DNA of 64,000 bases from Eubacteriaceae bacterium. Its GTDB lineage: Bacteria > Bacillota > Clostridia > Lachnospirales > Lachnospiraceae. The DNA lies in assembly GCA_902362875.1 (NCBI GenBank), contig CABIYF010000004.1, positions 62,001 to 126,000 on the forward strand, in the 5' to 3' direction. The notes beneath the pieces were generated by a model. It made no database searches. It was not told the origin of the DNA and was given only the letters and a program-made list of their open reading frames with translations. The position numbers and the translations under genes were made by a program. Of the stretch, positions 8,306 through 22,904 are shown in pieces. Each line of letters begins with the position of its first letter. The first letter of the stretch is position 1.

Positions 8306-9622
8306 TTACTTTCTGATTCTTTCTAAATATTCTTTGATATTCTTCTCATATCCATTTTCCGTTGGCTCGTAAAATGTTGTTCCCAGAAGTTCATCTGGAA
8401 GATACTGTTGTTTTACATAATGATCCGGATAATCATGTGCATATTTATATCCGATTCCATGTCCTAATTTGGCTGCACCTTTATAATGAGCATCTCTTAA
8501 ATGGTTTGGAACTGCCCCGATCTTATGATTTCTGACAGCTTCTAACGCCTGATCGACTGCCATGTATGCTGCATTGCTCTTTGGCGCACTGGCTACATAG
8601 GTCACTGCCTGTGCCAGAATGATCCTTGCTTCCGGCATTCCGATCCGCTCAACTGCCTGTGATGCTGCAACTGCCACCTGAAGTGCTTGTGGATCAGCAT
8701 TTCCAACATCTTCGGATGCACAGATCATGATTCTTCTTGCAATAAATGTCACACTTTCTCCGGCATCGATCATTCTTGCCAGATAATAAACTGCTGCATC
8801 CGGGTCGGATCCTCTCATACTTTTGATAAATGCTGAGATCACATCATAGTGGTTATCTCCGTCTTTATCGTATTTTGTCACTCTTTTCTGGATACATTCC
8901 TGTGCTACTTCGATATCAATATGAATCTTTCCGTCTTCGGCTGGTTCTGTTGTTAAGATTCCAAGTTCGATCGCATTTAAGGCACTTCTTGCATCTCCTT
9001 CTGCCATATCAGAAAGAAAATCTAACGCGTCATCTGTAATCGTTGCTCCGTAGATTCCCATTCCTTTTTCATCATCGGTTATGGCTCTTTGTATCAACTT
9101 TTTAATGTCTTCTTTATCAAGTGAATGTAATTCAAATACATTTGATCTTGATATCAACGCCTGATTGACTTCAAAATACGGATTCTCTGTCGTTGCCCCG
9201 ATTAAAATGATCGTTCCGTCTTCCACAAATGGCAGCAGGTAATCTTGCTGTGCTTTATTGAATCTGTGAATCTCATCGATGAACAAAATCGTCTTCTTCT
9301 GATACATTCCAAGAGATTCTTTTGCATCGGCTACTGCTTCCTGCATATCTTTCTTGCCAGATGTTGTGGCATTCATCTGCACAAAATTTGCCTTTGTTGT
9401 ATTGGCAATGACTTTGGCTAACGTTGTCTTTCCTGTTCCCGGTGGCCCATAGAAAATGATAGAGCTGATCTTGTCAGCTTTGATCGCCCTGTATAGTAAT
9501 TTATCTTTTCCGATAATATGTTCCTGTCCAACCACTTCATCAAGAGTTGTCGGTCTCATTCTCCCTGCTAATGGGGATTCTTTATCTTTATTTAATTCTC
9601 TTGCATATTCAAATAAATCCAT
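8306..9622 (-). CDS. rarA: Replication-associated recombination protein A (AAA+ ATPase)
   Basis: This 438-residue RarA/MgsA is a clamp-loader-like AAA+ protein acting at stalled replication forks. Visible motifs are the RPTTLDEVVGQEH start, Walker A GPPGTGKTT, Walker B ILFIDEIHRF, sensor region GATTENP and the C-terminal tetramerisation part with NHLRDAHYKGA. Length and ends are normal. The start follows TGGAGGAAA. It appears monocistronic. Confidence 0.95.
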   Translation of the reverse strand: MDLFEYARELNKDKESPLAGRMRPTTLDEVVGQEHIIGKDKLLYRAIKADKISSIIFYGPPGTGKTTLAKVIANTTKANFVQMNATTSGKKDMQEAVADAKESLGMYQKKTILFIDEIHRFNKAQQDYLLPFVEDGTIILIGATTENPYFEVNQALISRSNVFELHSLDKEDIKKLIQRAITDDEKGMGIYGATITDDALDFLSDMAEGDARSALNAIELGILTTEPAEDGKIHIDIEVAQECIQKRVTKYDKDGDNHYDVISAFIKSMRGSDPDAAVYYLARMIDAGESVTFIARRIMICASEDVGNADPQALQVAVAASQAVERIGMPEARIILAQAVTYVASAPKSNAAYMAVDQALEAVRNHKIGAVPNHLRDAHYKGAAKLGHGIGYKYAHDYPDHYVKQQYLPDELLGTTFYEPTENGYEKNIKEYLERIRK

Positions 9623-9768
9623 AGTTTTCCTCCAGATTTTATCTTAGCACAGGGTATTTAGAAAATCTATCAATTGTTAATAGTTTTTTTATAAATAGGT
9701 CATGATTTTATCATATTCCTCTGATATAATAAGAGAAGTTAATAACAAAGCACGGGTTAGGAGTTATC

Positions 9769-10386
9769 ATGAAAAATACAGCAATTGAAAAACTTTCTTA
9801 TACCGAAGTTACGAAGAATATCAGCCAGGCTGAATATGACCAGACACAGGAAGAATACATCCTGTCCAAATCTCCTGATAAATATATGATCAGTCTTCCG
9901 GTCAAGGTATTAATGTTTGAAGGAGCAGAGGACAGTTCCCCATTTACATATTATTTTTATATGGAAAATGATGAAGATCTTTATCTGATGCAGAGGAAAC
10001 GAAACGGATCAGTCGTCGATAAGACTAAAATTCCTCTGACAAAAGAACAAGGACAGAAGATTTTGGATGGCGATTATCAGTTTTTATTAGACAGTGATGA
10101 ACCGTTACTTAATTCTCTTTATTTCCAGTTTACGGTAAATCAGCTGCATCCTTTATATAAGAAGGAGTGCACAAGAAAGATTTTTCATCAGAATCGGTTC
10201 TTAGATGAGATTGTGGATATTCATATTGTTCGAACACCTTTTGAAGAAGATAAAGACTTCTTTGCCACACATGATACGATGCTCAAAGGTGGTACGAAGA
10301 ATAATCTTAGGAGAAATACGAGACAGTATTTGAATATGTCAAAACCTATGGCAGATTTGTTGAATTATCAGAATTCATTAGTATAA
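9769..10386 (+). CDS. Hypothetical soluble protein
   Basis: This gene encodes 205 residues with no signal or membrane segment and a good GGAG ribosome site; a tataat box lies 55 bases upstream. The alternation of basic and aromatic strands (YLMQRKRNG, KKECTRKIF) faintly recalls the beta-tunnel folds of VTC/CYTH proteins, but no diagnostic motif is seen. It is convergent with rtcB and shares a terminator with it. Confidence 0.65.
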   Translation: MKNTAIEKLSYTEVTKNISQAEYDQTQEEYILSKSPDKYMISLPVKVLMFEGAEDSSPFTYYFYMENDEDLYLMQRKRNGSVVDKTKIPLTKEQGQKILDGDYQFLLDSDEPLLNSLYFQFTVNQLHPLYKKECTRKIFHQNRFLDEIVDIHIVRTPFEEDKDFFATHDTMLKGGTKNNLRRNTRQYLNMSKPMADLLNYQNSLV

Positions 10387-10393
10387 TATTTAT

Positions 10394-10444
10394 AAAAATA
10401 ATATCATTCTCAGAATTTATATTTCCTCGAATGATATTATTTTT
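10394..10444. terminator. Bidirectional terminator
   Basis: Perfect 16-base arms aaaaataatatcattc (10394-10409) and gaatgatattattttt (10429-10444) have A and T runs on both sides. They lie between the convergent hypothetical gene and rtcB. Confidence 0.85.
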
Positions 10445-10446
10445 TA

Positions 10447-11652
10447 TTATGAAGCCTTAAAATTAAATACGGGCTTCATCACTTCCACCACATCCACTGA
10501 CTCTCTGACCACATCAATAATATCTTCCAAAGATTTATAAGCCATCGGTGCTTCATCTAGTGTCTGTTCATTAACTGATGTTGTGTAAATTCCTTTCATG
10601 GATTCTTTATATGCTTGCATATCTAACTGATCTTTTGCCTTCGTTCTTGACATTAATCTGCCTGCACCATGTGGTGCTGAATCATTCCATTCTTTGTTTC
10701 CTTTTCCGATTGCCAGAATGGAACCATCTCTCATATTCACAGGAATCAATACTTTTTCTCCTTGATGCGCTGCGATTGCACCTTTTCTTAGAATCATTTC
10801 TTCTGTGTCAATATAATTATGGATTGTATGGAAAGATTCTTCTGCCGTCATACCTGTTCTTTCTAAAATGATCTCTGCCATTCTCTCTCTATTTCTTCTT
10901 GCAAATGCCTGACAGATTTCTACATCATGTAAGTAATCTTCTAAAAATCTTCCATACAACCAGCAAAGATCTTCTGGAATACTTAAAACTTTTGTTTTAT
11001 AGCTTTTCTTTAGCTCTTTTAATGCATCTTGTATCTCATTTCTCCGGCCTGCTGCCTTATAAGTTTTTATGATTTCATCTCTTTTTGCAAAATATTCTTC
11101 TTTTCCCATATGAAGATCAACTGCTAGCTGCTGATAGTATTCTGCCACCTGTTTTCCCAAATTACGGCTACCTGAATGGATAACTAAATAATATGTTCCC
11201 TCTGATGCCTGATCGATCTCAATAAAATGATTTCCACCGCCAAGTGTTCCAAGGGAGCGTTCTAATCTTTTTGTATTGTTTAGATTTCTTCTGCATCGTA
11301 ATTGTTCAAGATTAAGTCGTTCTTCTCTGCCTTCCCATACATTCTTTCCAGAAGGAATATAATGACATGCTTCATCTATTTTTTCGAAATCTAATTCTTT
11401 CTCTTTTAATTTCACTGTATACATTCCACATCCAATATCAACTCCGACAACATTTGGACATGCTTTATCAATGACAGTCATTGTTGTTCCAATCGTACAT
11501 CCAGCTCCTGCATGGACATCCGGCATAATACGGATTTTGCTGTTTCTTGTCAGTTCATAATCACACATCGTTCTGATCTGTTCGATCGCTTCTTCTTCGA
11601 TTACTTTTGCATAACAGATCGCTGTATTTACTTTTCCCTTAATCTCTAACAT
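10447..11652 (-). CDS. rtcB: RtcB family RNA ligase
   Basis: This 401-residue RtcB-type ligase joins 2',3'-cyclic phosphate or 3'-phosphate RNA ends to 5'-OH ends using GTP and Mn2+. Family motifs are PDVHAGAGC, VGVDIGCGM (metal-binding Cys), LGTLGGGNHFIE, VIHSGSRNLG and the guanylylated-His region SAPHGAGRLMSR. It is slightly shorter than E. coli RtcB (408). The ATG at 11652 is chosen for its spacing from AAAGGA; the ATG at 11661 is too close. It lies downstream of two WYL-domain genes on the same strand. Confidence 0.92.
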   Translation of the reverse strand: MLEIKGKVNTAICYAKVIEEEAIEQIRTMCDYELTRNSKIRIMPDVHAGAGCTIGTTMTVIDKACPNVVGVDIGCGMYTVKLKEKELDFEKIDEACHYIPSGKNVWEGREERLNLEQLRCRRNLNNTKRLERSLGTLGGGNHFIEIDQASEGTYYLVIHSGSRNLGKQVAEYYQQLAVDLHMGKEEYFAKRDEIIKTYKAAGRRNEIQDALKELKKSYKTKVLSIPEDLCWLYGRFLEDYLHDVEICQAFARRNRERMAEIILERTGMTAEESFHTIHNYIDTEEMILRKGAIAAHQGEKVLIPVNMRDGSILAIGKGNKEWNDSAPHGAGRLMSRTKAKDQLDMQAYKESMKGIYTTSVNEQTLDEAPMAYKSLEDIIDVVRESVDVVEVMKPVFNFKAS

Positions 11653-11709
11653 ATTTCTCATTCCTTTCTTTTTTCTTTATTCTATCTGGAAATATGCCTC
11701 TTATCATGG

Positions 11710-11784
11710 AAAAAAAGTTGCGAACTGTTTTATCGCTGTCTTATGAAGTTCCATAATTGCGATATTACTGTTCCCAACTTTTTT
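11710..11784 (-). terminator. Possible terminator or attenuator between WYL genes and rtcB
   Basis: Arms aaaaaaagttgcgaac (11710-11725) and gttcccaactttttt (11770-11784) nearly complement each other, giving a stem ending in a T run on the minus strand. It overlaps the stop region of the second WYL gene. rtcB may therefore be only partly co-transcribed. Confidence 0.45.
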
Positions 11785-12682
11785 GTTTTCTTAAACGTTC
11801 TTTGATTAAATTTACAAAATGCTCTGGCTGTACAACTTTGATCATCGGTCCAAATGACAAAATACGAATTACCATCTCTGTCTCGTCATCTTTGTCATAA
11901 TCCACTGTAATCTGATATTTGTTTTTCGCGATTCTTTCCGCTTTCTTTGGAAAATGTGCAAACTGTAATAGAACTCTTTCTAAGGCCTTTCTTTCATCTT
12001 CGAGTTCAAAGATCACTCTTCTTTTTCTTGGTGGAATTCTGTGAATCAGCTTTGTATTCTCGGTTGTTTTTGTGCCTTCACAACTTACAATCCGTCCAAG
12101 ATTGACGGTTCCGCCTAGTCTGCTTCCAAATCCTGCGACACGGAATTTATCATCTTTTTCGGAATATTCAAGATATTTCGGCAAAATCTTCATTGATACT
12201 TTTTGGCCTTTATGATTATATGTAGTAATTTCTAACGGGTATTGATTCTTAATCGCGTCAAGGATCATTCTGAAATTTCTAATATAAACTTTATCTGTAT
12301 AATCATCTCCATCTTGATATTGGTCAAAGATATAGAAATCATCTAGAGTAAATAATGGTTCTATCTCTGGAAAGTCTATTTCTTTCAGATCATCTTGAAA
12401 TAAATGAATTCTTGGATCTTGGCAGATGGATTTTAACCATCGTTTTTGAATTGTTGTAAGTGGCATGGATGGATGATTCTTTAGAACCGTTGTTCCATCT
12501 GACCTAATCAACTGCCATTTTTGTTCTCTTAGTGCTGGTTCTATGCTTAGTACACTTTCTGAAAATGCATATTTCTCTATAATCTTACATATCTCATCTT
12601 TCTTTAATGGATGATCTAATGCTACCTCCAGAATTTTGGCAACTGTCTGATAATACACACTGTAAATTTCATGAAATATCAT
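11765..12682 (-). CDS. WYL-domain regulator, second of a pair
   Basis: This is a 305-residue WYL-superfamily protein. The central region carries the WYL-like beta barrel (LEITTYNHKGQKVSMKILP then the VNLGRIVSCE segment), and the C-terminal part resembles the WCX extension. The N-terminus is helical without an obvious winged helix. Its ATG overlaps the upstream WYL stop by four bases, so the two are coupled and may act together. WYL domains sense nucleic-acid or nucleotide ligands in known cases. Confidence 0.75.
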   Translation of the reverse strand: MIFHEIYSVYYQTVAKILEVALDHPLKKDEICKIIEKYAFSESVLSIEPALREQKWQLIRSDGTTVLKNHPSMPLTTIQKRWLKSICQDPRIHLFQDDLKEIDFPEIEPLFTLDDFYIFDQYQDGDDYTDKVYIRNFRMILDAIKNQYPLEITTYNHKGQKVSMKILPKYLEYSEKDDKFRVAGFGSRLGGTVNLGRIVSCEGTKTTENTKLIHRIPPRKRRVIFELEDERKALERVLLQFAHFPKKAERIAKNKYQITVDYDKDDETEMVIRILSFGPMIKVVQPEHFVNLIKERLRKQKSWEQ

Positions 12683-13923
12683 TGTACTTCACCACCTTCC
12701 AGATCATATAGTTCATACATTTTTTGAATATCTCTTTTAAACTGGGTTTCCAAAATCTTGTTTGAAAAATGAATTTCTGTGATCCTGCATAGAAAAGTCC
12801 TGATCCATGGCACTAGTTCACTTGCATCGTATACTTCTGCATAAAAACGGCTTGTATGATCATCAATCTTTTTGACTTTTCCGCATCTCTTTTCCCGTTC
12901 CAGTCTTTGATGGATATATGGTTCATTTTCTTCATAATGAACTGTAAACTCTACAGTCTCCATCCTCTCTCCTGACCTTGAAGTTGTGCTGACACCCCAT
13001 ATGTGTTTCTTCATGTATTTCAATTTTTTTCTTAATTCTTGAAAATCTTTATCTTCTTTTTCTATTTTTACTGATATTATACGATCTAGTCTGAAAGATG
13101 AAATTCGTTTAAACTGTTGGCTGTACGCCATCAAGTACTGTCTGCCACTTTGTACGCTGATGAAAATTTGTAATGGAATTACTTTCATTTTTGTCTTATT
13201 GCCTGTCCTTTTTTGAAGCATTTGAATTGTCACACTGCTTTTCTTCTGCATTGCTTCGAATAACTGACACATCACATCACTATCCATCGTTCCTGTGATG
13301 TAGTGATGTTTAAATGCAAATTTTCCTTTATGTTTTAGCTGCTGGTCCAGCAAAAATGAACCTATCACCCCGCATGGTACTATTTCTGAGAAATAATCTA
13401 AAATATCTATATTCCCTTTATAAATTTGATCTGATTTCTTATAATATAATGTTTTTCCACATTTTTCAGTTTCTATGATTCCCTCGTTCACATATTCTCT
13501 TAATTTCTTGCGGATTGTTGACTCATCAAATACTTTTGGACTTTCAAATACAGAAAGATATTGATCTACTTGCTTTGTAATCTCATGAATGGAAAGACTT
13601 TCTTTTGCTAATTCTAAAATATCCATTATGATAAAATGGAACGTGATATCACCATCAGTAAAACTCTTTATCTTCCATGCCTGATACAATGGATTATGTT
13701 CTGTGATCCGACTGTCGATGGATAAAAAGACATTTTTCCCATTTTCTGTTTGGTGAAATTGTATATAATTTCCTAGGATACTTTCTATGCGGCGGCGTTC
13801 ATTATCATAAGATCTTGGGCTTTTTCTTGTGTATTCTTCTCGTTTTTTGAAACCATAGACATAGAATTCCCGCATATAGCTACGGATACGGTTGAAGTTT
13901 TTGATCAATTCTTTGTATGCCAT
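12679..13923 (-). CDS. WYL-domain transcriptional regulator, first of a pair
   Basis: This protein has 414 residues. A winged helix-turn-helix is likely around residues 115-170 (SIHEITKQV...STIRKKLREYVNEGII). The WYL domain follows near 220-300, with SVQSGRQYLMAY and SSFRLDRI, and then a C-terminal WCX-like part. It is the first gene of the WYL pair upstream of rtcB. The two genes may control rtcB in response to damaged RNA, replacing the sigma-54 regulator RtcR of proteobacteria; that is inference. Confidence 0.78.
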   Translation of the reverse strand: MAYKELIKNFNRIRSYMREFYVYGFKKREEYTRKSPRSYDNERRRIESILGNYIQFHQTENGKNVFLSIDSRITEHNPLYQAWKIKSFTDGDITFHFIIMDILELAKESLSIHEITKQVDQYLSVFESPKVFDESTIRKKLREYVNEGIIETEKCGKTLYYKKSDQIYKGNIDILDYFSEIVPCGVIGSFLLDQQLKHKGKFAFKHHYITGTMDSDVMCQLFEAMQKKSSVTIQMLQKRTGNKTKMKVIPLQIFISVQSGRQYLMAYSQQFKRISSFRLDRIISVKIEKEDKDFQELRKKLKYMKKHIWGVSTTSRSGERMETVEFTVHYEENEPYIHQRLEREKRCGKVKKIDDHTSRFYAEVYDASELVPWIRTFLCRITEIHFSNKILETQFKRDIQKMYELYDLEGGEVQ

Positions 13924-13998
13924 GGTTTCACCTCGTTTACACTTTTCTGTTCAACTCTTCATAGCTGTCAAGTACCGTTACTGAAAACTTATAAAAAG

Positions 13999-14767
13999 TT
14001 ATAAACCTTTATGTTTCATTCCTACTTCAACGAGTATGCTTTTGTAACGAATCAATTCATGTACTACTCACAAGTTCCTGTACTCTCCATAGGCGTTAAT
14101 TCCTGACTAACGTATCAGTACATATCTGTAATCACTTGAATATATTATGCTACAGATCGTTTCAGAAATTGATCTGCAATGATCACCTGAATATTGTTCC
14201 ACTTAGATTTATATTCCATCTGCCGCCTAAATTCATAAAATCCCTGTTGTTGAACTGCTTTGGATAAATGTCTGTTTTTCATCATTCCCTTTACATTTAA
14301 ATCTTCGATACAGATAAAACTTGGTTCTCGTTTTACGATCTCTGATGTTATATGATGTAAATGATCATGACGGATATCGGTTAGTCTATGATTTAATATT
14401 AATAAAAGTTTTTCCTTTTTGATCACATTCTTCGTTTTACAGTATTCCTTTCCTTGTTTATTGTTCTCGTATGAACGAGAGATGCTACGCTGTAATCTGC
14501 GTTTTTGTTTCTCTAGTTTCTTAACTTTTTTCGTTTTATTGATGTTCTTATATTTATTGCCATCAGAACATATCGCTAAATCTTTAATCCCTAAATCAAT
14601 CCCTATCCCTTCATTGGTGGGAACGGTAACAGAGTCTTCGTATTCAATGCCTACTGTGATCCACCAGTTGATCCCATCATATCTAATACGGGGATTACTA
14701 TAGTTACAATCCGTAGGTATCCGATTCTTTTCCGCAAGTCTGATCCAGTTTATCTTTTGCTTATTCT
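13999..14767 (-). pseudogene. Remnant of an IS605-type TnpB gene
   Basis: The minus strand reads in one frame from about 14767 to 14145 through TnpB sequence: INWWITVGIEYE, the RuvC-I segment GIGIDLGIKDLAIC and the RuvC-II segment FICIEDLNVKG. It then ends in FLKRSVA-stop where the zinc finger should begin. About 130 bases further the typical C-terminal tail EVGMKHKGL-stop appears in a separate piece. The N-terminal third is missing and the gene abuts an Rpn-type fragment at about 14760. It is dead as a nuclease. Confidence 0.8.
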
Positions 14768-15162
14768 TCTTTTTGCTCAGATTTTATAGCATCGTTAATT
14801 AATTTTTGTGATTCAGTAATGCAACCAATTACCATGGCTAATTCGGATGATATATTTTTTTCTTTGTATATATCAGTGATTTTATCATATTTTTCGTCAA
14901 AAATAAATCTGCTAATATTGAATATTGTGTTGACATCGTCGTTGTGAAATTTTAAATATTCGCTTTTACGAAGTTCAATTAAGTTAAATTTATAATCCGA
15001 AATTAAAGGTTTAAAAACATCTGGGATTTCTAGCATATCAATTAGGGAATGAGGACCGTCCCATGGATTTTCCCCATAGTAAATACATATTGTAAGAACG
15101 CTGTGTAATCGATCCGTTTTCTTCATTGTGATTATACTAGCAAAAACAAGAACAAATGTCAA
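14761..15162 (-). pseudogene. Fragment of an Rpn/PD-(D/E)XK transposase-like gene
   Basis: The 133-residue reading contains the family stretch TICIYYGENPWDG and a following MLEIPDVFKPLISDYKFNL. Rpn-type proteins are near 300 residues. The N-terminal part, with much of the nuclease core, is missing. The first residues (MTFVLVFASIITM) are probably not native, and the last bases overlap the TnpB remnant. It is classed as a remnant rather than a working gene. Confidence 0.7.
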
Positions 15163-15407
15163 TATATGTAAAATAAGATAAGCATAAATAATGAAACAAA
15201 AAAGAAGATATGAGCTGCCGAGAGCGATAGCAGATTATTTCTTAACAGATAATTATTGAGTGTTAACACAGAATTCGTCTGATAAGTTCTAAATCATTGG
15301 AAAAGTAGTAGAGGAAACATCCAAAACAAAATTTCAATATCTTAAGAACAAATTAAACGAATATTATATGAATGGTAAAGTAAGAAATAAAATTTTAAAG
15401 ATAATGA
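15163..15407 (+). other. AT-rich spacer with short gene remnants
   Basis: No intact gene. An ATG at 15191 opens 22 codons reading MKQKRRYELPRAIADYF..NY before a stop; this resembles the N-terminal signature of the two nearby small proteins. A second open stretch ends at 15417 (YLKNKLNEYYMNGKVRNK) and is not recognised. Confidence 0.35.
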
Positions 15408-15474
15408 AAAAGAGTTAGGTTTTTATTCAATGTCATCTTAACTTAATGACATTGAATAAAAACCTAACTCTTTT
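15408..15474. terminator. Very long perfect bidirectional hairpin
   Basis: A 29-base perfect inverted repeat (15408-15436 with 15446-15474) surrounds a 9-base loop. A/T runs at both feet make it a terminator in both directions. It closes the minus-strand small-protein gene. Confidence 0.85.
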
Positions 15475-15492
15475 GTTATTATCAGTATAAAA

Positions 15493-15897
15493 TTAAGAAT
15501 GATTTGGTCTGTTTTTGTATGTAGATTTTACATATCCTTGATGATGCCAAGTTCGATTACCACTCTTAGTTGTCCAATAAATGTAGTCTCCTTGTTTAAC
15601 AGAAGAGTAGGATTTTGAATATCGATAACTGGAATCAGTGTATAAATTACAAGGTAAATTTCCTAAACCATCAGTTCCTTCTTCGATCATAGAAACTGCA
15701 ACACCTTTTGAATTTGTGTAAATATGCTGATTTGTATCAAGTCCACAATGTTTAGCAACATGATCTACTCCATAATGACCTTTATCCACTTTATTGGCAG
15801 AATCTATTGAGCAGGCAACACCCCAACAAGCGGCTACATACTCATTGGTCATAAATGTTTCTTCAAAAGCCATAGGACGTTCGTATTTTCGTTTCAT
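15493..15897 (-). CDS. Small protein with YERP...NEYVAAC N-terminus, RiPP precursor candidate
   Basis: The protein has 134 residues. It begins MKRKYERPMAFEETF and reaches NEYVAAC with Cys at position 24, exactly as in the divergent neighbour at 16337. The rest differs: it is rich in Tyr, Ser, Lys, Asn and Gly, has three further Cys, and ends in GNRTWHHQGYVKSTYKN. There is no membrane segment. AGGGGGA lies upstream of the ATG, and a near-consensus promoter drives it. A shared leader-like block before a variable body, next to a radical SAM/SPASM enzyme, suggests a modified peptide, but 134 residues is long for a RiPP precursor. It could instead be an exported or surface protein. Confidence 0.65.
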   Translation of the reverse strand: MKRKYERPMAFEETFMTNEYVAACWGVACSIDSANKVDKGHYGVDHVAKHCGLDTNQHIYTNSKGVAVSMIEEGTDGLGNLPCNLYTDSSYRYSKSYSSVKQGDYIYWTTKSGNRTWHHQGYVKSTYKNRPNHS

Positions 15898-15962
15898 AAA
15901 ATTCCCCCTAATGTATTAATTTAGTCGTAATAAGTATACTTCCCCTTAAAATATACAACATC

Positions 15963-15991
15963 ATTATATAAAGAAAAACTGCTTGAAGCAA
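15963..15991 (-). promoter_or_regulatory. Promoter of the leftward NEYVAAC gene
   Basis: On the minus strand TTGCTT (15986-15991) and TATAAT (15963-15968) are separated by 17 bases, about 65 bases upstream of the start codon. Confidence 0.7.
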
Positions 15992-16223
15992 GTATTTTTA
16001 TGAAAAATTCAATGATTGATAGGTAAATATTATGATATGCGAAGAGATTACATGTGAACTTAAGATTATTCACTGGTAGATTATGAAAAAATAAGGATTT
16101 TTTTACAAATGATTGAAAAATCTAGGATTTCAGACTATAATAAAGTAAAAATATTAAATTAGAAGATGATGGTTTGTTGAAATAGCAGATTACGAAAAAA
16201 AGATGCCTTTTACAGATGGTTTA

Positions 16224-16252
16224 TTGCGTTAAATGGCAGATTCTAGTATAAT
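16224..16252 (+). promoter_or_regulatory. Promoter of the rightward NEYVAAC gene
   Basis: TTGCGT (16224-16229) and TATAAT (16247-16252) have a 17-base spacer. The 5' leader before the start codon is about 75 bases. Confidence 0.72.
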
Positions 16253-16336
16253 ATAGTCATGAAAAAAGATGTTACAGAATGATGATGCAATATAAGATGA
16301 AGATAGAATTTGTATAGAAGGAAAGGGGAAATGATT

Positions 16337-16765
16337 ATGAAAAGAAGATATGAAAGACCAAGTGCTTATATAGAAGAATTTACACCGAATGAGTATGTGG
16401 CAGCTTGTGGAGAGGGTGGAACTATTTATAAATTTCAATGTACAGCAGGTGGAGGAAAAAATGGTGACCTTACAGATATAACAGGTACGATAAATTATAC
16501 AGATGGTGGAAGACATAAGGAGTTAGGTACAGAAAGATATACTAGTTATCATGCATGTAATGCTGAACATAGTGCATCTAGTAGCGATACTTTTGTTAGA
16601 GGACGTTATTATCCTAATGGTGGATATGATAACCTTAAAGGTAAGTATGAAGAAGTGTATATTTGGTTTGAACCAGTAAGTAAGGATTGGTGGGGAAATA
16701 AAGGATATGATATTCATGCAACTACCAATTTAAATCCGGAAACATGGGAAACAGCTAAATCATAA
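16337..16765 (+). CDS. Small protein with YERP...NEYVAAC N-terminus, RiPP precursor candidate
   Basis: The protein has 142 residues. The start at 16337 gives ideal spacing from GGAAAGGGG and aligns with the partner: MKRRYERPSAYIEEF, then NEYVAAC with Cys24. The remainder is Gly/Thr/Tyr/Asn-rich (TAGGGKNG, GRYYPNGGYDN) with two more Cys. A strong terminator follows at once and the radical SAM gene begins 54 bases later, so the small protein should be made in excess of the enzyme, as with RiPP precursors. No database family is recognised, although N-termini ending in NEYVAAC are familiar from other Lachnospiraceae. Confidence 0.68.
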   Translation: MKRRYERPSAYIEEFTPNEYVAACGEGGTIYKFQCTAGGGKNGDLTDITGTINYTDGGRHKELGTERYTSYHACNAEHSASSSDTFVRGRYYPNGGYDNLKGKYEEVYIWFEPVSKDWWGNKGYDIHATTNLNPETWETAKS

Positions 16766-16772
16766 AAAATAC

Positions 16773-16800
16773 AAAAAGAACCGAGCTACCGGTTCTTTTT
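16773..16800 (+). terminator. Terminator or attenuator before the radical SAM gene
   Basis: Perfect 11-base arms aaaaagaaccg (16773-16783) and cggttcttttt (16790-16800) enclose a 6-base loop. Partial read-through would set the precursor-to-enzyme ratio. Confidence 0.8.
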
Positions 16801-16819
16801 TATTACAAGGAGAGTGATC

Positions 16820-17926
16820 ATGGACTTATTTGACACTAATACTACCTTCGAACGCCAACTTTTTGCAAAGGCAGCAAGGAACCGTATTCCGCTTTATGGA
16901 GTACTAGAGTTATTGCCTCTCTGCAACTTAAACTGTGACATGTGCTACGTTCATTTATCCAAACAAGAAATGCAGTCGCAAGGTGGATTGCAGAGTGTGG
17001 ATGAGTGGATTTCTTTTGCTCATCAGATGAAGGATGCAGGGACATTGTTCTTATTGTTAACGGGTGGGGAGCCTTTATTATTTCCGCAGTTTAAAGAATT
17101 ATACTGTGCATTAAAAGATATGGGTATGATTCTCACGCTCAATACCAACGGGACGTTGATCAATGAGGAATGGGCGGAATTTTTTGCGAAGAATAAGCCA
17201 AGAAGGATAAATATAACTTTATATGGATCAAAGAATGAGACATACAAGAATCTATGCCATATGAAGGATGGATTTGACAAAACGATCAGAGGGATTGAAT
17301 TATTAAAAAAATATAAGATTGATGTCAAGATCAATGGAAGCCTTGTGAAGAAGAATTTTCATGACAGGATGGAGATCATAGATATCGGAGAAAAGTATGA
17401 TATCCCAGTTCGGATCGATACTTATATGTATCCATCCGTGCGTGAGCGGATAACTCCTTTTAATTTTCATGAGAGATTAAACCCAGAGGATGCTGCAAAG
17501 GCAAGGGTTGAAATCTTACACCGTGAAATGGGGGATGAACTTTTTGAGCAATATGCGAAGCAGACTATTTATCTGGCAGAACATACAGAAGAAGGAGATG
17601 CCTGTCCGGGGCATATGACATGCAGGGCTGGACAGAGTTCATTTGTTGTTAATTGGCAAGGCATGCTACGTTCATGTGTCGTGTTAGATCAGCCAAGTTA
17701 TGATGCCTTTGATACAACGGATGATTTTATGACATTATGGAATAAGATCGTGAGAGAAACAGAAGAGATCAAAACAAGTGTGGAATGCAATCAATGCAAA
17801 TTAAGACATGTATGTAACACATGTGCAGCGGCAGCAGTTGCAGAATGTGGAGATTTTGAGGGTGTTTCAAAATATTTATGTGAATATACAAAGGAAACAG
17901 TTAGGAATTTAAAAGAGTTTTACTAA
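16820..17926 (+). CDS. Radical SAM/SPASM domain enzyme
   Basis: This 368-residue enzyme has the radical SAM cluster motif CNLNCDMC (near residues 36-43), the LLTGGEPLL glycine motif, and a C-terminal SPASM-type cysteine set: CRAGQSS, a later LRSC, CNQCKLRHVCNTC and a final YLCEY. Such enzymes modify peptides or proteins (thioether, C-C or epimerised residues) or mature partner enzymes. The ATG at 16820 is preferred because AAGGAGAG is 7 bases upstream. No RRE (leader-binding) domain is obvious; the first 30 residues could carry a small recognition segment. Two Cys-bearing small proteins upstream are the likely substrates by context only. No transporter or peptidase gene follows. Confidence 0.88.
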   Translation: MDLFDTNTTFERQLFAKAARNRIPLYGVLELLPLCNLNCDMCYVHLSKQEMQSQGGLQSVDEWISFAHQMKDAGTLFLLLTGGEPLLFPQFKELYCALKDMGMILTLNTNGTLINEEWAEFFAKNKPRRINITLYGSKNETYKNLCHMKDGFDKTIRGIELLKKYKIDVKINGSLVKKNFHDRMEIIDIGEKYDIPVRIDTYMYPSVRERITPFNFHERLNPEDAAKARVEILHREMGDELFEQYAKQTIYLAEHTEEGDACPGHMTCRAGQSSFVVNWQGMLRSCVVLDQPSYDAFDTTDDFMTLWNKIVRETEEIKTSVECNQCKLRHVCNTCAAAAVAECGDFEGVSKYLCEYTKETVRNLKEFY

Positions 17927-17931
17927 GAAGC

Positions 17932-17979
17932 AAAATATGGAGAAAGAAGTTGCATAAAGGACTTCCTTCTCCATATTTT
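17932..17979. terminator. Terminator after the radical SAM gene
   Basis: Nineteen-base arms (17932-17950 and 17961-17979) with one G-U-type mismatch flank a 10-base loop and end in ttttat. Confidence 0.8.
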
Positions 17980-17991
17980 ATACATAATAAG

Positions 17992-18231
17992 TTATTCAAT
18001 ATTCTCAAGATACTTCTGAACCATTTCATCCTCGCTCCAATCTATATGCTTCAATACAAAATCATACAAAGGCTGCACAACATCCGCATCTTCTTCTAAC
18101 TCATCTACAATTTGGTCGAAAGATTTATTTTTATGGATTTTTTTCACGATTAACTTAAGCTTATTTTCGGTTTGTCCTTGTAATCTGCCTTCTAATCGTC
18201 CTTCCTGGCGACCTTTTTCCTCTAATGATTA
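17992..18231 (-). pseudogene. C-terminal fragment of an Rpn-family gene
   Basis: About 78 codons read EEKGRQEGRLEGRLQGQ followed by an acidic helical end finishing LENIE. This repeating EGxxEG tail is the usual C-terminus of Rpn-type PD-(D/E)XK proteins. An in-frame stop precedes it and the nuclease part is absent. It is probably unrelated to the fragment at 14.8 kb, which lacks this tail. Confidence 0.65.
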
Positions 18232-18275
18232 ATCTAAATAAACATGTAGTTTTCTTCCAAAGAAAAAAAGTAACC

Positions 18276-18298
18276 ATATATATATATATATATATATA
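18276..18298. repeat. (AT)n microsatellite
   Basis: About 11.5 uninterrupted at dinucleotides lie within the remnant region. Confidence 0.9.
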
Positions 18299-18319
18299 CT
18301 CTTTTCCATTATATTTTGT

Positions 18320-18870
18320 AATGTTTTTTCTTTGCCTCTGGAATTAAAAATTTTTCATAAAATAAACTACTCATTGATTCCATCGTCAGTAAATTTCTTG
18401 TTTTTTCAATTACATCCTTCAATAATTCGCCATCATCAATCTCTAATATTTCTATATTTCTATATTTCCATTAATAACTTCAAAAATAATTTTCATATTA
18501 TCACTTCTTGAAGTAGCTTTTTTTGTAGATAATCGCTCATATACAATACTGTATCTTCCTGTAACATCTTTTGATAAAATTAACTTATAACGACATACAA
18601 CAAGAGAATCAAGAATTTTCACCATAAAATCGCTTTCAATGGATAATTGGATTGTTTAAATAACCTGAATCTGTAAGAATACTCTTTAAAATCTTAACTG
18701 AAGTCACTATTCCCGATTTTCCCGATCCATTCATTCCGTAAATTCCTTTGATATTATATCCATTCATATCTGGATTTTTAGAAATTGTTTTTTATAAAAT
18801 GATAGTTTCACATCTTCATCTAATGATTTTATCCCTTTAACTGAATAATTAATCAAATATATAAGTTGCA
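18320..18870 (-). pseudogene. Broken AAA-family ATPase gene
   Basis: Minus-strand fragments in shifting frames read KGIYGMNGSGKSGIVTSVK (Walker A near 18730), then ILKSILTDSGYLNNP, and further down pieces typical of an SMC/OLD-like ATP-binding protein. Several stops and shifts interrupt it. No Walker B or C-terminal part is recognisable. It is a decayed defence-type or repair-type ATPase. Confidence 0.6.
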
Positions 18871-18927
18871 CTTTCTGATTACTTCCTTTTCAATTTAGCT
18901 TCCGCCACTTCACACCTTTTACTTCCT

Positions 18928-19090
18928 CTAATAGATAATCTCTCCGTCCATGATCGTAACCAATACTTTCGTATCTAATATTTCTTTTGGCTTAACCTCG
19001 AACAGATTTCTATCTAACACGATCACTTCGGCCAGCATTCCTTCTTTTAATATTTCTGCCATTGTAATCCTTTGATCATCTTTCTTGCTT
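18928..19090 (-). pseudogene. C-terminal fragment of an amidohydrolase gene
   Basis: The reading QRITMAEILKEGMLAEVIVLD continues to FEVKPKEILDTKVLVTIMDG and a stop. This is the standard C-terminal end of YtcJ-type metal-dependent amidohydrolases. The join QRITMAE to LKEGMLAEV skips about 25-30 residues found in intact members, so the fragment is also internally deleted. Confidence 0.6.
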
Positions 19091-19104
19091 TGATCTGTAT
19101 CCGT

Positions 19105-19461
19105 ATGCTAACTAAGATTATAGCTGAATTAATGGTGCATTCTTCCTATGATGTGAAAGAATCCTGCAGAATCTATTTACCAGAGGTTAATGCAGCTCTA
19201 TCAACACAAGAAGATGAAGAAACAGATTATTCTAAATTTTATCTGTTCTGTAAAAAATATTAATTAACCACAAGAGAACAGGATATCTTAAAACTACTCC
19301 TTGATGATATGAACAATACAGAGATCATTGAAACTTTATGTATTTCCGTTGGTACTACAAAAGCTCATATTCATAATATATTTGCAAAAGTTGATATAAA
19401 ACGTAGACGTGATCTGATGCAGATTTATGAAAAATATACAGCTTCTACTGAAGATGAATAA
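19105..19461 (+). pseudogene. LuxR-type regulator remnant with internal stop
   Basis: One frame reads from 19105 to 19260, stops at TAA (19261-19263) and resumes in the same frame as LTTREQDILKLLL through TTKAHIHNIFAKV to a stop at 19461. The second part is a complete LuxR helix-turn-helix. The stop could come from a single CAA-to-TAA change. The receiver or sensor domain upstream is missing. Confidence 0.7.
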
Positions 19462-19476
19462 CAATATGTTTTGCAT

Positions 19477-19520
19477 AAAAATAATACCATTCACATTTTT
19501 TGTTGAATGGTATTATTTTT
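19477..19520. terminator. Bidirectional terminator
   Basis: Perfect 17-base arms (19477-19493 and 19504-19520) with flanking A and T runs separate the LuxR remnant from spoIIID. Confidence 0.85.
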
Positions 19521-19521
19521 A

Positions 19522-19770
19522 TTACTTATGAAGATATTTCTCCTTTGTTGCCATCCCACCCCGGATATGACGTTCCGATTTGTTGATATCAAGCACTTTC
19601 CTTGCTTGTCTTGCAAGTGTTTTGTTGATCATCTCTAATCGTTCTGTCACATCCTTATGTACTGTGCTTTTGCTGACTCCAAACTGCTTAGCTGTCTGGC
19701 GGACGGTTGCATTGTGCTCGATAATGTAAGTTGCACTTTCAATAACCCGTTCTTCCATGTATTTCTTCAA
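19522..19770 (-). CDS. spoIIID: Sporulation transcriptional regulator SpoIIID
   Basis: This 82-residue SpoIIID is a mother-cell DNA-binding protein that adjusts the sigma-E regulon. The core ATVRQTAKQFGVSKSTVHKD is the conserved helix-turn-helix, followed by the basic C-terminus RHIRGGMATKEKY. A TTG start at 19770 behind AGGGGG gives the family's normal length; ATG four codons later is the alternative. A CATAAACT box upstream resembles a sigma-E -10 element but the -35 is weak. Its presence shows the host lineage sporulates. Confidence 0.95.
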   Translation of the reverse strand: MKKYMEERVIESATYIIEHNATVRQTAKQFGVSKSTVHKDVTERLEMINKTLARQARKVLDINKSERHIRGGMATKEKYLHK

Positions 19771-21803: not shown

Positions 21804-22904
21804 TTAAAAGAATAAACCTTCTAATTCATCTTCTTTTAATTTAGATCCAATGACACAGATTCTTCCTGTGTAATCCGCGCTTCCTTCACGGATTTCATAT
21901 TCCCCTGGAACAAGGTCAAACTGAACCCATGATCCGTCTTCTGTCTGTAAGATACCTTTGGATCTTAAGATCATGCCATAACTGTCATCTTTAGATAATT
22001 TCTGTAAGATTTCTTCCAGTTCTTCTTTCTTATATTTCTTAGGTGTTTCTTTACCCCAGCTTGTAAATACTTCATCTGCATGATGATGGTGGTGATGATG
22101 ATCATGGTCATGTCCGCATCCACATCCGCATTCTTCGTCATGGTCGTGATGATGATGTTCGTGTTCATGATCATGATCGTGTCCGCATCCACATCCGCAT
22201 TCTTCGTCATGGTCGTGATGATGATGCTCATGTTCGTGTTCATGGTCATGATGTCCACCGCATACAGGGCAGATTTCCTCTTCTTCTAATAATTCTTTGG
22301 CCATATCATTTCCGTCTTCCATAACTTTTAAGATCTGTTCTCCTGAAAGTTCATCCCATGGTGTTGTGATGATCGCTGCTTTTTCATTATGTTCACGAAG
22401 AAGTGCTACGCTTTCATTTAACTTATCTTCTGCTACATCTCCTGTACGGCTTAAAATGATAGATCCTGCATATTCTACCTGATTATTGTAGAACTCACCG
22501 AAGTTTTTGATATACATCTTGCATTTCTTTGCATCTGCAACTGTTACAAAACTGTTTAAGTCTAAATCAACATCTTCTGCAACACCCTGTACCGCTTTGA
22601 TCACATCAGATAATTTACCAACTCCTGATGGTTCAATGATGATACGGTCTGGATCATACTGTGTTACAACTTCTTTTAATGCACTTCCAAAGTCTCCAAC
22701 TAAGGAACAACAGATACATCCTGAATTCATCTCTGTTACTTCGATTCCTGCATCTTTTAAGAATCCACCATCAATACCGATCTCACCAAATTCATTCTCG
22801 ATCAGTACGACTTTCTCTCCTTTTAATGCTTCTTTTAATAATTTCTGGATCAGTGTTGTTTTACCTGCTCCTAAAAATCCTGATATAATATCAATCTTTG
22901 CCAT
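21804..22904 (-). CDS. CobW/COG0523 metal-chaperone GTPase with His/Cys repeat
   Basis: This 366-residue G3E GTPase has Walker [10 protein letters not shown] and the metal-binding CxCC motif in [11 protein letters not shown]. Between the GTPase and C-terminal CobW domains, roughly residues 215-280, lies a His/Asp/Glu-rich segment with CGCGCG. A 23-residue unit is duplicated there. Such His loops store or hand over Zn, Ni or Co. It is the first gene of the pair with the GTPase at 20832. No riboswitch or clear operator was found in the 150 bases upstream. Confidence 0.88.
22111..22248. repeat. Two 69-bp tandem units encoding a His/Cys metal loop
   Basis: tgtccgcatccacatccgca starts at 22111 and again at 22180, giving a 69-base period. 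Units differ by a few third-position and spacer bases. Each encodes [10 protein letters not shown] plus a His/Asp/Glu stretch in the minus-strand GTPase. Confidence 0.9.

Follow-up and report, generated by a model that had tools for sequence, protein, structure and literature searches.

PqqD-like proteins are typical leader binders, and one is a member of the SynChlorMet cassette (ScmC, ScmE, ScmF), which is not known to have been characterized. Among lasso peptides phosphorylated at the C-terminus, PadeK acts as a kinase on the C-terminal Ser of the paeninodin precursor, and PsmN, a nucleotidyltransferase homolog, is responsible for the hexose on the phosphorylated Ser of pseudomycoidin, according to passages in PMC9266682. 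I consider here a locus within 64 kb of Lachnospiraceae DNA (contig CABIYF010000004.1, positions 62,001 to 126,000), a stretch that I will refer to as the window and whose positions serve as coordinates. The locus comprises two small genes in opposite orientations, whose products begin with a common block ending in NEYVAAC, and a gene encoding a radical SAM (S-adenosylmethionine)/SPASM enzyme. No description of these proteins or of their cassette was found in the literature searched.

The reading that I favor, with a probability of about 60%, is that the NEYVAAC block is a leader on protein-sized substrates, that the radical enzyme modifies the core behind it and that a kinase tags the C-terminal Ser before export; all of the chemistry and its order I infer. 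As part of the same reading, a system that modifies proteins under the guidance of a leader would have the rightward gene and the enzyme gene as its core pair, with a second substrate-type protein encoded by the leftward gene. The reading draws on the linkage of leader and enzyme genes, the modularity of leader and body, the matching of enzymes to bodies, a conserved hairpin, the C-terminal Ser, the accessory genes of related loci and a fusion of enzyme and kinase. The features of the locus are as follows.

15418..15464, minus strand: 20-pair terminator-like hairpin 3' of the leftward gene
15493..15897, minus strand: leftward NEYVAAC protein, 134 amino acids, reading frame intact, body type B (CWGVAC ... 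RPNHS)
15496..15498, minus strand: C-terminal Ser134 of the leftward protein, proposed kinase target
15811..15825, minus strand: core motif (aromatic-x-hydrophobic-x-Cys) WGVAC, leftward residues 25-29
15826..15897, minus strand: leader block, leftward residues 1-24 (family alignment and profile comparison)
16113..16141, plus strand: promoter-like site TTGAAA-17-TATAAT, 11/12 match, about 195 bases 5' of the rightward gene
16337..16765, plus strand: rightward NEYVAAC protein, 142 amino acids, reading frame intact, body type A (CGEGG ... WETAKS)
16337..16408, plus strand: leader block, rightward residues 1-24 (family alignment and profile comparison)
16427..16441, plus strand: core motif YKFQC, rightward residues 31-35
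16760..16762, plus strand: C-terminal Ser142 of the rightward protein, proposed kinase target, invariant in 36 type-A rows
16773..16800, no strand given: 12-pair hairpin between the rightward gene and the enzyme gene
16820..17926, plus strand: radical SAM/SPASM enzyme, 368 amino acids, from the clade associated with type-A bodies

One Leader-like Block on Bodies Unrelated in Sequence

Both small genes are present as a preliminary description of this DNA had them, and its claim that their products diverge completely after the common block holds as well: the profiles of their two families (A5 and A6) match only over 25 leader columns (hhalign E 7.9e-17), and nowhere in the bodies. Over residues 1-24 the two proteins are identical at 17 of 24 positions, six of the 17 being encoded by different codons, and the DNA of the blocks is identical at 53 of 72 bases. 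The two genes are the only matches to the leader profile below E 0.5 within the window, and neither protein has a match in Pfam or NCBIfam. Among named relatives of the leftward protein the nearest, at 99% identity, comes from Anaerostipes hadrus, and the window resembles that species.

Structures predicted from the family alignments have a mean pLDDT (predicted local distance difference test, a confidence score) of 81.1 and 81.3 for the two proteins. Block means are 49-63 over the first 20 residues, 61 and 78 in the next block, and mostly 81-96 in the body. Because pLDDT is high in the bodies and low at the N-termini, the bodies are here read not as loose peptides but as predicted folded beta domains of about 110-120 amino acids behind a poorly ordered leader. 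A fold search of the PDB with both models returned no match at E 0.001 or better. The suggestion that the N-terminal block is a recognition segment fares well: the block is leader-like, it is common to bodies unrelated in sequence, its low-confidence N-terminus precedes a confidently modeled body, and it is tied to an enzyme clade.

The leader proteins of the related loci described below fall into 12 body families (blastp, E 1e-6), and these together with the profile alignment give the conserved leader and variable core expected of a radical SAM system for ribosomally synthesized and post-translationally modified peptides (RiPPs). What the bodies have in common lies at their two ends. A C-terminal Ser is found in 93 of 95 leader proteins, across all 12 families (the two others are a 35-amino acid fragment and a protein ending in SSI), and in 90 of the 95, Trp and then His stand ahead of it. 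The ends may be sorted into types A (...KS and near variants), B (...NRS), C (...NAS), D (...NHS) and others. Ser is also the last residue in 109 of 120 database relatives of the leftward protein; the remaining 11 comprise seven that stop short, two with a different tail and two that end in Pro. At the other end of the body, an aromatic-x-hydrophobic-x-Cys motif lies within the first 14 core residues of 84 of the 95 proteins, as compared to a mean of 2.4 and a maximum of 8 in shuffled sequences.

The Enzyme and Its Linkage to Leader Genes

The best start of the enzyme gene is the ATG at 16820, which follows AGGAGAG and gives a protein of 368 amino acids, like its closest database relatives. 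From this start the distance to the rightward stop is the 54 bases given in the preliminary description. The three radical SAM cysteines (C32, C36, C39) and seven SPASM cysteines (C265, C283, C320, C323, C329, C332, C351; all numbered from base 16829) are invariant in 16 rows, the pattern of a radical SAM cluster and two SPASM clusters.

The enzyme falls below the cut-off of every NCBIfam model among the best 25 of its 69 matches. The highest scores, AhbD (100.1 bits) and NirJ2 (90.1 bits), might be taken to indicate that it is an ordinary heme-pathway enzyme, a sulfatase maturase or some other non-RiPP radical SAM enzyme whose position is incidental. I regard this as very improbable, since both scores are far below cut-offs of 500, the score to the anaerobic sulfatase maturase model TIGR03942 is 58.9 bits against a cut-off of 349.45 (an assignment that the preliminary description had named as fatal to its proposal), and the linkage to leader genes extends over 57 loci.

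That linkage was assessed in 76 loci obtained by scanning species genomes with a profile of the enzyme alignment. They derive from the best 80 of at least 457 relatives, so the counts describe the closest relatives, and gene calls within them are longest-open-reading-frame guesses. Counting enzyme genes at a profile score of 300 or more and leader genes at E below 1e-3, a leader gene lies directly upstream of the enzyme gene, on the same strand, for 66 of 94 enzyme genes, in 57 of the 76 loci (a looser cut gives 67 pairs rather than 66). Relatives thus keep a precursor gene beside the radical SAM/SPASM gene, as is expected of a radical SAM RiPP system. The gap between the two genes has a median of 77 bases, measured from called starts.

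The hairpin claimed for the end of the rightward gene is there, as the 12-pair stem at 16773-16800, and it has counterparts elsewhere: in 55 of the 66 pairs the 70 bases after the precursor stop contain a fold with z below -2 (30 mononucleotide shuffles per region). A hairpin in this position would suit a higher output of precursor than of enzyme. Of the near-consensus promoters claimed for both small genes, the rightward one can be seen as a promoter-like site, an 11/12 match with a 17-base spacer, but the only site with that spacer found for the leftward gene is a 9/12 match (16108-16080), and the 10 promoter-like sites of the region are not above chance (shuffled mean 12.3, standard deviation 3.7).

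A second assessment used 397 Lachnospiraceae genomes, of which 13 have the leader and 28 the enzyme, all 13 lying among the 28 (hypergeometric 5e-17), although the leader profile was built from neighbors of the enzyme and the linkage is therefore partly ascertained. An enzyme gene lies within 1 kb downstream of 13 of the 25 leader genes in these genomes, and 19 of the 25 are on a contig that also carries one. NEYVAAC proteins that are common without the enzyme, which would have told against the original proposal, were not encountered: none of the 13 leader genomes lacks it.

Related enzymes also occur on contigs labeled Prevotellaceae or Bacteroidales (loci L039, L047, L069), possibly through transfer or mis-binning. 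In four other loci (L017, L023, L066, L070) the upstream slot of related enzymes is occupied by a PqqD-like gene instead of a leader gene, and the substrates there may differ.

Enzyme Clade and Body Type

When body types are laid on a tree of the enzymes, 7 changes of label are required, as compared to a mean of 27.7 for shuffled labels, with none of 200 shuffles as low. The tree was built quickly; 15 of its 64 branches are starred and one, L047, is very long. In nine loci there are two pairs that differ in body type, and their enzymes group by type and not by genome. On this tree, enzyme clade follows body family.

The enzyme in the window belongs to a supported cluster of five enzymes, all of type A, which is also the type of the rightward protein. 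Relatives of the leftward, type-B protein precede a radical SAM paralog of their own elsewhere. Because the window enzyme groups with type-A enzymes, the leftward protein is without its usual partner in the window. Of the two bodies proposed as substrates, the rightward one belongs with the adjacent enzyme, and the leftward one is of the type that goes with the paralog, which is not in the window.

Accessory Genes in Related Loci

Gene-family clustering and gene maps of the 76 loci give the following numbers of loci with each kind of neighbor: kinase-like 50, PqqD-like 47, ABC exporter 33, Wzz-type 33, Ig-like 32, NTP_transf_5 (PF14907) 30, S24/S26-like 27, CpsB 23 and LCP 16. The preliminary description noted that no protease or exporter gene was adjacent. 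This is so in the window, but many relatives carry peptidase-like and ABC exporter genes, and a recognition protein, kinase, nucleotidyltransferase, peptidase and exporter are all present among them.

Pfam confirms representatives of PqqD, LCP, CpsB, the ABC exporter, the Ig-like protein and NTP_transf_5; both PqqD-like proteins tested score above the Pfam PqqD cut-off. A PqqD-like gene is immediately upstream in 30 of the 66 pairs and a kinase gene immediately downstream in 20. The S24/S26-like family matches Pfam Peptidase_S24 just below cut-off, its Ser33, His72 and Asp87 are invariant, and of the solved structures SEC11A is its best relative (E 4.2e-4).

Of the 29 rows of the kinase family, all match the NCBIfam model ScmC (best E 5.9e-11) and 28 match HprK_rel_A, below the cut-off where one is shown; six match Pfam Hpr_kinase_C weakly. 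The kinase residues His152, Lys173 (the Walker Lys) and Asp192 are invariant in the 29 rows. In one genome the enzyme (residues 7-369) and the kinase (371-649) are fused in a single frame of 650 amino acids beside a type-A gene (L011, 9983-11935, plus strand; L114, 8202-10154, plus strand, is the same contig). Both kinase and NTP_transf_5 genes are found in 18 of the 38 loci longer than 20 kb. Elsewhere, a kinase and NTP_transf_5 pair was seen (L112, 17389-19496, minus strand) in a genome in which no leader gene or enzyme was found.

Two further explanations bear on these neighbors. According to one, the small proteins are not exported products. Each would instead work as a subunit or an enzyme, in which the radical enzyme installs a cross-link or a cofactor derived from the protein itself, the kind of change made to the gamma subunit of quinohemoprotein amine dehydrogenase. 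Protein-sized bodies that are predicted to fold and have conserved Cys, Trp and His would suit this, but the gene families found in four or more loci include no conserved partner oxidoreductase, genes for exporters, peptidase-like proteins and the capsule recur, and one leader is common to many bodies unrelated in sequence; I consider the explanation unlikely. Equally improbable, to my mind, is that the N-terminal block serves as a tag for export or for binding a partner and that the radical enzyme acts on something else, such as a capsule sugar. The presence of Wzz, CpsB or LCP genes in 24 of the 38 loci longer than 20 kb speaks for a connection of this kind, but it would leave unexplained why the enzyme clade tracks body type, why the spacing of precursor and enzyme genes is regular, with a hairpin, and why a PqqD-like gene so often lies immediately upstream.

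Surroundings of the Locus

The closest genome compared, G012 (91% DNA identity at rarA), has no leader or enzyme match. From rarA to the next shared segment (window positions about 9622-19527) there are 9.9 kb in the window as against about 3.1 kb in G012, with little DNA match to G012 apart from a repeated element that resembles an insertion sequence (IS), and because of this difference in length the locus is placed in a variable region.

It is possible, though doubtful, that what this strain has here of the system is orphaned or decaying, a variable region having kept the precursors and one enzyme and lost the accessory genes. The gap in DNA match, the absence of accessory genes from the window and a leftward protein separated from its enzyme type are what a remnant would look like. 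On the other side, all three reading frames are intact and conserved, and G012, without leader or enzyme, has an intact kinase and NTP_transf_5 pair far from rarA. Because G012 keeps that pair at another site, accessory genes can lie elsewhere, and it is likely that they act from elsewhere in the genome of this strain, the kinase and nucleotidyltransferase presumably serving the window genes from such a distance.

Other features of the surroundings may be mentioned. An RAGATH-18 RNA (14019-14093, minus strand) lies just 3' of a TnpB-like frame (14145-14790, minus strand) that looks broken, and the stretch 13973-14775 has at least four near-identical copies in G012. RAGATH-18 RNAs have been published as guides of IS607 TnpBs (PMC11061315). 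Positions 18100-19300 contain many short gene fragments and a run of AT dinucleotides, as if decayed mobile elements had gathered beside the enzyme gene. At 21804-22904 (minus strand) is a GTPase-like protein with long repeats rich in His, Asp and Cys, by eye presumably metal binding.

A Proposed Scheme

In the scheme that I propose, leader residues 1-23 (MK...P......F..NEYVAA) would be recognized by the PqqD-like protein, by the enzyme or by both. The dedicated radical SAM/SPASM enzyme would then modify the beta domain, the likeliest site being the aromatic-x-hydrophobic-x-Cys strand that follows the leader, or its vicinity. Where loci are complete, the HprK-like kinase would phosphorylate the C-terminal Ser, to whose phosphate the PF14907 protein would add a group; the radical SAM modification might come either before or after this tagging. 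The SEC11-like peptidase may cut near YVA-A-C, and the ABC exporter would carry the product out beside the capsule locus. The terminal Ser, HprK-like kinase and nucleotidyltransferase would fit, by analogy, the logic of the lasso peptides applied to a folded protein, the peptidase-like protein and exporter suggest removal of the leader and export, and the capsule genes suggest a location at the surface. Of the overall reading in the preliminary description, then, the leader-like block and its link to an enzyme clade stand, the bodies are better read as predicted domains, and any modification of their residues is a proposal.

Besides the partial ascertainment of the linkage, several observations weigh against this scheme. 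No PqqD, kinase, NTP_transf_5 or S24/S26 gene lies within the window, whose two best ABC matches are generic (303 and 283 bits, as compared to 1119.7 for a system exporter of another genome), and the type-B enzyme cognate to the leftward gene is not in the window either. A leader gene is not directly upstream of 28 of the 94 enzyme genes; in the Lachnospiraceae genomes, no enzyme gene follows within 1 kb for 12 of the 25 leader genes, and the leader profile has no match in 15 of the 28 genomes with the enzyme. The core motif is missing from 8 of the 12 body families, each of one or two members. The Pfam SPASM match of the enzyme is below cut-off (14.5 vs 21.5 bits). The kinase does not have the full His-Lys-Asp-Asp catalytic set of HPr kinases, for the Asp-Asp pair is not kept: the residue after the invariant Asp is R in 48 of 57 sequences and K in 6. 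It speaks for the scheme that the kinase is found at E 1e-100 or better in all 13 leader genomes and in none of the other 384, but this cut was picked after viewing the list, and at 1e-20 the kinase is found in 86 of the 397 (including all 13 leader genomes). At the same threshold NTP_transf_5 is found in 96, including 12 of the 13.

A further possibility, rather unlikely as it stands, is that the loci constitute a distinct class of leader-guided products the size of proteins. Many unrelated small beta domains would have one leader in common and a radical SAM enzyme each, acting on the aromatic-x-hydrophobic-x-Cys strand; their invariant C-terminal Ser would be phosphorylated and then joined via the nucleotidyltransferase to a sugar or to the capsule polymer made nearby, giving surface display of modified proteins without sortase.

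If the favored scheme is true, common gut Firmicutes make enzymatically modified small proteins and not just peptides, by means of a leader that works as a module, bodies of several folds and enzymes matched to them. Radical SAM chemistry would be coupled to tagging of a C-terminal Ser, with the enzyme-kinase fusion as direct support, and gut commensals would have a testable route by which to decorate or defend their surface. The leader and the matched pairs of enzyme and body might also be used as tools to modify folded proteins.

Comparison with Known Systems

The loci described here resemble radical SAM RiPP systems that use a PqqD-type recognition protein in having a small gene with a conserved N-terminal block beside a radical SAM/SPASM gene, and 47 of the 76, though not the window, carry a PqqD-like gene. 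They differ in that the cores here are predicted folded domains of about 110-150 amino acids, from several unrelated families, and that the enzyme scores below NCBIfam cut-offs. Of the heme-pathway enzymes, AhbD and NirJ are the highest-scoring characterized sequence families for the window enzyme, but it reaches one fifth of their cut-offs or less, and its partner is a leader-bearing protein.

Judged by sequence, the solved structures nearest to the enzyme include SkfB (E 2.1e-14) and 5v1q (E 4e-12), which brings in the sactipeptide and ranthipeptide maturases (SkfB, StsB, PapB and SuiB-like enzymes in the PDB). The enzyme nevertheless falls below the cut-offs of the corresponding models, PapB (53.2 of 340 bits) and StsB (53 of 625 bits), and the substrates here have few Cys.

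With the SynChlorMet cassette there is likeness in both kinase and enzyme, the former matching ScmC and the latter ScmE and ScmF, but at scores well below the cut-offs for membership (31.2 of 125 for the first ScmC row, 73.8 of 400 for ScmE). With the C-terminally phosphorylated lasso peptides paeninodin and pseudomycoidin, so far as passages in PMC9266682 describe them, the set of loci shares a conserved C-terminal Ser, an HprK-like kinase and a nucleotidyltransferase, all three together. Lasso cyclase and B2 leader peptidase are not among the recurrent gene families (four or more loci), no profile having been run for them. The present loci differ in having a radical SAM enzyme, predicted folded proteins as substrates and a kinase with one Asp where HprK has two. 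The locus is thus a variant of the leader-guided radical SAM systems, nearest in parts to SynChlorMet and to the Ser-phosphorylated lasso peptides and, by the tests made, a member of neither.

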